The notes below the pieces were generated by a model. The model did no database searches, had not been told where the DNA came from, and worked only from the letters and a program-made list of their open reading frames with translations. Made by a program: the position numbers and the translations under genes. From Leisingera sp. NJS204 (lineage in GTDB: Bacteria > Pseudomonadota > Alphaproteobacteria > Rhodobacterales > Rhodobacteraceae), in the NCBI RefSeq assembly GCF_004123675.1, contig NZ_CP035417.1, forward strand, positions 3,773,501 through 3,837,500: a stretch of 64,000 nt of DNA, in the 5' to 3' direction. Positions 35,494-36,152 of the stretch are shown piece after piece (the first letter of the stretch is position 1; the number at the start of each line of letters is the position of its first letter).

Positions 35494-35499
35494 TTGACA
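35494..35499 (+). promoter_or_regulatory. Possible -35 element TTGACA before the small ORF
   Basis: A perfect TTGACA stands 46 bases before the Shine-Dalgarno of the small ORF. At the expected distance there is no clear -10 box, so this is a weak call. Confidence 0.3.
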
Positions 35500-35544
35500 T
35501 TAACCGAATCTATGGCAGGCTGGGGTCACACGAAACATTCAGAA

Positions 35545-35672
35545 AGGAGGTGCCCATTGTCTAGAGAAGCTATGGAGAGCAGTGCCGGAACAGTTCAGAA
35601 GGCGTGCGGCCGAGGCAGCCCTTGGCGCGTATAGATTACTGAATTGGTGCTGACCTAACCGGTGCACCTCCT
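35545..35672 (+). ncRNA. Structured RNA with SD/anti-SD closing stem
   Basis: The segment aggaggtgc (35545-35553), which is the Shine-Dalgarno of the small ORF, is exactly complementary to gcacctcct (35664-35672). These nine pairs would close a loop of about 110 nt that contains the whole ORF. A strong terminator follows at 35680-35716, so the element has its own transcript end. I do not recognise it as SRP RNA, 6S RNA, tmRNA or RNase P RNA. Confidence 0.5.
35557..35634 (+). CDS. 25-codon small ORF, unknown function
   Basis: A TTG start lies six bases after the consensus Shine-Dalgarno AAGGAGG (35544-35550). The product is M-SREAMESSAG, then TVQKACGRGSPWRV, ending at TAG 35632-35634. An internal ATG at 35572 lacks a ribosome-binding site. 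The peptide is hydrophilic, with one Cys and one Trp, and has no signal or membrane segment. I do not recognise a family. Coding status is supported by the near-ideal SD and spacing only. It could be a leader peptide, a small regulator, or an incidental frame in a structured RNA. Confidence 0.5.
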   Translation: MSREAMESSAGTVQKACGRGSPWRV

Positions 35673-35679
35673 ATCATCT

Positions 35680-35716
35680 CGAAGGGCTGTTTCCGCGTGT
35701 GGGAACGGCCCTTTTC
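35680..35716 (+). terminator. Intrinsic terminator after the small ORF RNA
   Basis: A stem of about 13 pairs, aagggctgtttcc with gggaacggccctt (two G-T pairs), has a six-base loop gcgtgt and is followed by a short T run. It ends about 17 bases before the arfB ATG, so arfB needs its own promoter or read-through. Confidence 0.85.
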
Positions 35717-35732
35717 GATTACTGACTGAGCC

Positions 35733-36152
35733 ATGATCCACGTTAACGCGCAAATCACCCTGCAGGATTGGGAACTCACCGAAAGCTTTGTCCGTGCCTC
35801 CGGCCCCGGCGGGCAGAATGTGAACAAGGTGGCCACTGCGGTGGAATTGCGGTTCGAGGCCGAACGCTCACCGGCGCTGGTGCCTGCGGTCAAGAACCGG
35901 CTGAAACGGCTGGCCGGGCGCCGCTGGACCAAGGAAGGCGCGATCATCCTGCAATGCGACGAGACCCGGTCGCAGCAGCGCAACCGCGAAATCGTACGCG
36001 AGCGGCTGGCCGAGCTGGTGCGCAAGGCGCTGGTGGCGCCCAAGCGGCGCATTGCCACCAAACCCACACGCGGCTCGGTCAAGCGGCGGCTGGAGGCCAA
36101 GAAACAGCGCGGCGGCCTGAAAGCGACGCGCGGTAAAATCGACCCGGATTGA
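35733..36152 (+). CDS. arfB: Alternative ribosome-rescue factor ArfB (peptidyl-tRNA hydrolase)
   Basis: A 139-residue release-factor-like protein that frees ribosomes stalled at the ends of broken messages. It has the catalytic GGQ in ASGPGGQNVNKVATAVELRF, the domain-3 fold of release factors, and a long basic C-terminal tail (KKQRGGLKATRGK) that enters the empty mRNA channel. Length fits ArfB/YaeJ. The ATG at 35733 follows closely after the terminator of the small ORF element, and the SDR operon starts 67 bases downstream. Confidence 0.93.
   Translation: MIHVNAQITLQDWELTESFVRASGPGGQNVNKVATAVELRFEAERSPALVPAVKNRLKRLAGRRWTKEGAIILQCDETRSQQRNREIVRERLAELVRKALVAPKRRIATKPTRGSVKRRLEAKKQRGGLKATRGKIDPD

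Follow-up and report, generated by a model that had tools for sequence, protein, structure and literature searches.

A small RNA gene of the Rhodobacterales, probably related to Rfam CC2171, with a short reading frame that may be kept for its translation and not for its peptide

The element of interest lies between positions 35494 and 35716 of the window, that is, the whole 64,000-nucleotide stretch of the Leisingera sp. NJS204 genome that was analysed. Its sequence marks it as the form taken in Rhodobacterales by an RNA gene that is widespread among alphaproteobacteria, and the family is probably the one known to Rfam as CC2171. We tentatively read the gene as a stand-alone ribosome-loading (translation-gauge) RNA, which would be selected for translation and not for the encoded peptide; this is our best reading, and we judge it a shade short of probable. 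It draws on (i) promoter-like and terminator signals of the gene's own, (ii) a Shine-Dalgarno (SD) sequence that matches the 16S rRNA tail over 11–15 bases, (iii) a closed frame, usually of 14–35 codons, (iv) a peptide without detectable coding selection, and (v) a start region paired to the sequence before the terminator. The parts of the element in the window are as follows:

35494–35499, + strand: −35 box TTGACA of the element's own putative promoter; exact in 27 of the 31 Rhodobacterales upstream regions listed
35516–35521, + strand: probable −10 box CAGGCT, 16 nt past TTGACA
35542–35552, + strand: extended SD GAAAGGAGGTG; 11 contiguous bases complementary to the genome's own 16S rRNA 3' end
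35544–35550, + strand: AAGGAGG core, then the six-base spacer TGCCCA before TTG (35557–35559)
35557–35634, + strand: mini-ORF LSREAMESSAGTVQKACGRGSPWRV; TTG, 25 codons, stop TAG at 35632–35634
35591–35598, + strand: 5' arm of helix P2, CAGTTCAG, codons 12–14; partner 35639–35646
35611–35613, + strand: CGA at codon 19, a stop codon in most Rhodobacterales relatives
35639–35646, + strand: 3' arm of helix P2, CTGAATTG; partner 35591–35598
35646–35650, + strand: GGTGC, potential local partner of GCACC (35664–35668), from window sequence and alignment
35664–35672, + strand: anti-SD GCACCTCCT; helix P1 partner of 35545–35553
35682–35715, + strand: intrinsic terminator, 13-pair stem and short T run

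Much of this layout had been described in a first-pass annotation of the window. The AAGGAGG motif, six-base spacer, TTG and 25 codons that it reported are all present, and the nine-base complementarity that it saw between SD and anti-SD is exact: AGGAGGTGC (35545–35553) is the complement of GCACCTCCT, and all nine pairs occur in the minimum-energy fold. The fold predicted for the 227-nt stretch has −86 kcal/mol (z −2.8). The stem estimated at about 13 pairs has 13 (35682–35694 with 35701–35713, two of them G-U), and its T run ends at 35715; a stricter terminator scan listed no terminator at the window element, probably because the T run is short. The idea of a self-contained transcript also holds up, in that the element has promoter-like and terminator signals of its own. 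A CAnnCT-like or YAnnnT block lies 15–17 bases from TTGACA in 26 of the same 31 upstream regions. What changes is the 5' end. There is indeed a feature at 35494, but it is the −35 box, and we therefore place the transcript start near 35528; the transcript of the window element probably runs from there to 35716. An alternative frame at 35552–35650, protein-like by eye, gave no Pfam match and was dropped.

The first-pass annotation knew no name for the element, and at the gathering threshold Rfam has nothing in the window. The nearest named family is RF01867 (CC2171, a Caulobacter sRNA), to which cmscan aligns the window element end to end (model positions 1–159 of 159; 25.6 bits, E 0.0019 in 601 bases), short of the family's gathering score of 75 bits; three same-family genomes give 33–39 bits. 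We regard the window element as a probable homologue of CC2171 that lies below the threshold for membership. SD, start position and terminator are common to the two. The 5' block of CC2171, GAAAGGAGGUGAUCCA followed by the start codon and UCU, reads GAAAGGAGGTGCCCA in the window with a spacer one base shorter, and its exact form is common in the window's family. The terminator hairpin that adjoins the closing helix in CC2171 is present as well, and Rfam's own consensus contains a frame of 22 codons (VSHCHQPRPPAWAWPPPKALSA) that begins at the aligned place and ends in a stop. CC2171 differs in that it is filed as non-coding and in that its closing helix is formed from codons 2–5, where Rhodobacterales use the SD. 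A search of the open-licence literature found no function for the CC2171 family and no description of it as a translated, peptide-indifferent RNA.

Element DNA was recovered from 20/20 other same-genus genomes searched (92–98% identity) and, at E 0.01, from six of 41 genera sampled, in some of them via short weak matches. Within the family, 194 of 248 genomes (193 of 247 genera) contain the exact pattern AAAGGAGGTGN{4,5}DTGTC, as a rule in a single copy with few exceptions. The short exact pattern (AAAGGAGGTG, 4–5 bases, a start codon and TC) occurs in 96/199 genomes of a Rhizobiaceae-type family and in 63/289 genomes sampled across the class; the other 226 lack it, so many genomes have either no such RNA or a diverged one. 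At E 0.01 the RF01867 model matches 68 of the 289 genomes from the class, and in nine the score exceeds the cut-off; that search filtered more strictly, and the window's own genome does not appear among its 68.

Several individual occurrences were recorded. Sphingomonadales seem to hold two paralogues (L041, L050, G048), an 18-codon MSHGS and a 22–24-codon MSHC version, and the pattern matches twice in genome G048. Bradyrhizobium and a Xanthobacteraceae MAG (L143, L157, L116) carry a version of 14 codons (VSYLKRCHLAGIAR-like), and two Rhizobiaceae-type genomes (L269, L270) an 18-codon one that is Rhodobacterales-like (MSKAILEIEVRKIGGNGI). A Pelagibacteraceae contig (L115) combines the same SD with a frame of 32 codons and an end that looks like a terminator. 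Two Gemmatimonadota MAG contigs (L068, L121) have an extended SD and frames of 20–21 codons, which may be due to mis-binning, to transfer or to a broader distribution. The same layout—GAAAGGAGGTGTC.., ATGTCT, a 20-codon frame and a GCGAG..CTCGC hairpin with a T run—appears on two Flavobacteriaceae MAG contigs (L131:5767, + strand; L135, − strand), both times after a Na/H exchanger gene. The phylum of the Flavobacteriaceae is mostly without SD sequences.

The SD is GAAAGGAGGTGATCC in 75 of 117 alphaproteobacterial loci, the scan pattern having required only GAAAGGAGGTG. GAAAGGAGGTGATCC is the exact reverse complement of GGATCACCTCCTTTC, which is single in the window's genome and lies at the 16S rRNA 3' end; across loci, the match between SD and 16S tail extends over 11 to 15 bases. 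At 111/113 loci the element is followed by a terminator-like hairpin, as against 81/492 random positions, and the same holds for 30 of 30 family loci. (A laxer terminator routine, replaced by this one, was positive at 125/137 loci with a background of 228/506.)

The frame downstream of the SD is kept open and short. A scan of GTDB contigs with GAAAGGAGGTGN{4,5}DTGTC, a pattern with no open-frame criterion, returned at least 120 loci. Among the matches listed, 80 of the 82 alphaproteobacterial loci (three of them MAGs labelled only 'Proteobacteria') close a frame of 12–32 codons; in the remaining two, the stretch ends before a stop, after 16 and 6 codons. Among the 38 non-alphaproteobacterial matches listed, which were sorted by hand according to record title, 12 have frames of 33 codons or fewer (one cut by the end) and 26 have longer ones. 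A length of 14–32 codons is seen in frame at 114/115 alphaproteobacterial loci, compared with 26/114 and 25/113 in the other two frames and with an expectation of 30% for shuffled sequence. The same-genus near-copies L002–L021 were left out of the frame and terminator counts. Thirty family loci that had not been selected for length carry frames of 18 (26 loci), 20 (two) and 26 codons (two), with L218 and L232 among them repeating loci already in the set. Thirty class loci, mostly the same places as L027–L056, include one frame of 137 codons, one that runs off the contig end and three of 34–35 codons. Later steps took named loci with a frame of fewer than 45 codons, a limit that dropped 0/82 alphaproteobacterial and 25/38 other loci; L026 was not used.

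The 25 codons noted in the first pass are correct for the window and do not carry over to its relatives, being a genus-specific extension of an 18-codon frame. In the window's genus, the stop at codon 19 is replaced by CGA in 21/21 rows; with the usual stop lost, the frame runs to 25 codons, again in 21/21. Elsewhere, the stop codon itself varies: the 49 length-18 rows end in TGA (22), TAG (16) or TAA (11). The Rhodobacterales and Sphingomonadales peptide sets and the stop set were chosen for length 18 (51 of the 55 Rhodobacterales rows), which makes the counts of rows open up to codon 19, and of those with a stop there, conditional on that choice.

No selection at the amino-acid level was detected in three groups, a result that tells against the regulated micropeptide proposed in the first pass. 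Among Rhodobacterales, the 49 unique frames of 18 codons give a pN/pS of 0.82 in frame against 0.72 and 0.86 when read out of frame, with variation spread about evenly over the three codon positions. The corresponding values are 1.29 (0.76 and 0.65 out of frame) for 16 Sphingomonadales frames, 0.83 (0.95, 0.81) for Rhizobiaceae-type frames of 22 codons (10 sequences) and 0.77 (1.02, 0.89) for those of 23 codons (13 sequences). A control gene, VUT, taken at 50 of the same loci in 11 windows, gives 0.17–0.49 in frame and 1.04–4.42 out of frame; this clearly coding result shows that the method can detect coding selection at this divergence. Peptide length and charge vary freely among the Rhizobiaceae-type relatives, with predicted pI ranging from 4.05 to 10.83. 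On these frame-controlled pN/pS values the micropeptide was set aside as leading idea, and the alignments suggest a peptide whose sequence seems to be of little consequence. The extension at codon 19 in the window's genus illustrates this directly. The main caveat is that weak peptide selection could be masked by a constraint of RNA structure on silent sites; in-frame pN/pS of 0.77–0.83 is slightly below 1.

RNA pairing was assessed by alignment-free duplex tests, in which each RNA's own pairing is set against pairings swapped among relatives, with relatedness ignored. Such tests were used instead of pair counting because MAFFT misplaced the anti-SD columns in several rows. The Rhodobacterales set comprised 53 rows, leaving aside L218 and L232 (duplicates) and L230 and L236 (another sub-type). 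Here, the SD pairs with the pre-terminator stretch at −16.7 kcal/mol within the same RNA, −15.7 after swapping and −11.0 after shuffling. With kinship ignored, 0/5000 permutations reach the observed mean (1/5000 in an earlier set of 27), and the pairing is preserved across the family. The SD core is predicted to be hidden in 51/53 of these RNAs versus 155/318 shuffles, which agrees with the first-pass view of a start site concealed by its own fold. That view is limited to Rhodobacterales: in other groups the SD is predicted hidden in 4/14, 8/25, 0/12 and 7/15 RNAs, with no excess over shuffles. In the window, GGTGC (35646–35650) could rival the SD for the anti-SD.

A second helix joins codons 11–16 to the region after the stop. 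In Rhodobacterales, 3/5000 permutations reach its own pairing; the same region gives 0/5000 in Sphingomonadales and 48/5000 in the MSSD group, and is not supported at that level in Rhizobiales (341/5000) or MSHC (1615/5000). In the groups outside Rhodobacterales, codons 2–7 pair with the pre-terminator stretch that takes up the SD in Rhodobacterales. Own pairs exceed swapped pairs in Rhizobiales (1/5000) and the MSSD group (4/5000), while in Sphingomonadales and MSHC the pairing is strong relative to shuffles and shows no covariation (3664 and 3897 of 5000). The codons 2–5 helix of CC2171 is absent as such in Rhodobacterales, where codons 2–7 do no better than swapped partners (3690/5000). The SD seal thus looks like the Rhodobacterales solution to a wider theme, a start region bound to the 3' end of the RNA. 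On a broader and more doubtful version of our reading, the element would be an ancient alphaproteobacterial RNA selected for being translated, a free-standing ribosome gauge or buffer, neither a gene's leader nor a peptide gene, whose lock was re-invented from one order to another, with the SD in Rhodobacterales and early codons elsewhere.

The genomic neighbourhood bears on whether the element acts on an adjacent gene. Of the 58 Rhodobacterales loci (55 distinct segments), 50 have VUT directly upstream, and 40 have arfB on the same strand within 500 bases downstream. The first-pass annotation had called the proximity of arfB suggestive, perhaps chance; it is real synteny within Rhodobacterales, but does not extend beyond them, as neither gene is so placed in the 131 other loci examined (113 distinct segments, 13 of them non-alphaproteobacterial), with 0/131 for arfB within 500 bases downstream. 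An arfB-like match lies elsewhere in the stretch at four of these 131. Given this distribution, arfB is probably incidental to the family. Twenty flanking proteins were scanned at selected loci in other groups; acetyl-CoA synthetase, a patatin-like phospholipase, gamma-glutamyltranspeptidase, an aminotransferase and an RNB-domain nuclease are among them, and six had no family match. All 20 were longest-ORF picks, which are error-prone in GC-rich DNA. Since the sampled neighbours differ between orders, the gene appears to stand alone. In the window, arfB starts at 35733 with no evident SD just upstream, and a promoter-like site (CTGACC, 16 nt, TATCAT; 35650–35677) overlaps the anti-SD.

For Rhodobacterales only, one might propose that the element is a translation-dependent attenuator of arfB, such that translation of the ORF would let the terminator form and its failure would allow read-through. 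The same-strand arrangement in 40 of 58 loci would suit this, as would the distance of 17 nt from the T run to the arfB start in the window, and among six blocks compared it is the one just past the usual stop that is most complementary to the 5' arm of the terminator. That complementarity, however, comes without covariation (2414/5000 permutations are as good), the arrangement is found at 0/131 other loci, and the promoter-like site within the element could serve arfB; we rate this explanation as quite improbable. A more serious competitor, if still an unlikely one, is an ordinary base-pairing sRNA, whose 3' region would act in trans while ribosomes loading onto a throw-away ORF would protect it from nucleases or tune its level. 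Such an sRNA fits Rfam's filing of the family, a stand-alone gene with a terminator and an unselected peptide, but internal pairing already explains some of the conservation seen outside the SD.

The remaining explanations give the SD or the peptide the leading part. The element could be an SD decoy, that is, a sponge for the 16S tail or for anti-SD sRNAs (cuckoo/CcsR, SisA-D), with translation unneeded. Its match to the 16S tail over 11–15 bases would serve that purpose, and both anti-SD sRNAs and sRNA sponges are described in the class (PMC12559287, PMC3927594). Yet an open frame and a stop are kept that a decoy would not need, the SD is predicted to be hidden in Rhodobacterales, and the match runs both ways along the 16S tail and not along the CCUCCUCCC motif of those sRNAs as they are presented in these sources; we consider a decoy improbable. 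We are no more inclined to accept a micropeptide gene, the peptide of which would act (at the membrane, as a chaperone or as a regulator) while its sequence evolves fast. The intact frame speaks for it, and so might SEP1 of Sinorhizobium meliloti, which could be a local member of the element's family: SEP1 is reported as a novel protein of 23 aa, with an ATG start assigned by exclusion, a pI of 4.18 and the top translation efficiency of 54 unannotated ORFs (PMC10117765). Rhizobiaceae-type members have 22–25 codons in 29/34 cases and a predicted pI of 4.05–4.56 in nine. Against a micropeptide stand the freely varying length and charge, and an in-frame pN/pS about equal to the out-of-frame values in three groups, whereas the VUT control is clearly coding. 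Type I toxin mRNAs have a start site sealed by a long-range fold. The long-range sealing of the element's start site may resemble theirs, and one could picture a toxin mRNA silenced by its 5'–3' fold until it is trimmed, but the peptides are short and divergent, with no evident membrane segment by eye, and we hold this to be very improbable indeed.

We return to the ribosome-loading RNA, the reading that we prefer. A 30S subunit caught by the SD would have to open the start-region helix, and the RNA would therefore exist in two states, ribosome-loaded (open) and ribosome-free (closed). The balance between open and closed would track the supply of free, active ribosomes; if the two states differ in stability or in the strand that they expose, the RNA would gauge or buffer ribosome supply. 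The word gauge, as a statement of function, is a guess. An RNA that titrates ribosomes, as offered in the first pass, is possible.

The closest studied mechanism among the sources consulted is the leader of a DUF1127 gene in Sinorhizobium meliloti, with a 29-codon uORF for which the RNA and its translation are reported to matter and the peptide not (PMC12218461). Without a ribosome, its ribosome-binding site is taken up in pairing with neighbouring RNA, and the uORF is proposed to monitor ribosome availability, acting in cis on the downstream gene by an attenuation thought to be Rho-dependent (PMC12218461). A short ORF, and a role for RNA over peptide, would be common to both; the DUF1127 uORF differs in having its controlled gene downstream in the transcript, whereas no shared downstream gene was seen for the element. 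A crude DUF1127 motif search across 239 loci gave two downstream matches, and on inspection by eye neither looked like DUF1127. In Rhodobacterales, such a controlled gene could be arfB.

Other small RNAs of the class are comparable in single respects. rnTrpL/peTrpL of Sinorhizobium meliloti is likewise a small RNA with a mini-ORF (PMC10117765), but it is leaderless and coupled to trpE, and its peptide is described as functional. The cuckoo/CcsR-type RNAs and SisA-D are also alphaproteobacterial small RNAs built on SD/anti-SD pairing; as described, they carry anti-SD motifs directed against mRNAs, whereas the element carries an SD and a frame. Pos19 of Rhodobacter sphaeroides is another sRNA with a translated small ORF and differs in its 150-nt ORF, its RpoE promoter and its reported absence from other species (PMC5036791). 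In Caulobacter, two previously predicted ncRNAs are reported to be in fact translated (PMC4117421).

What these observations describe is a family, filed as non-coding sRNA, that holds a frame kept open with its amino acids apparently ignored, beside a near-perfect ribosome-binding site. They carry a caution for the use of Ribo-seq lists, in which 'translated small ORF' need not equal 'functional peptide'. If it is true that this RNA gauges free ribosomes in trans, it would give bacteria a novel means of sensing or buffering their translation capacity.
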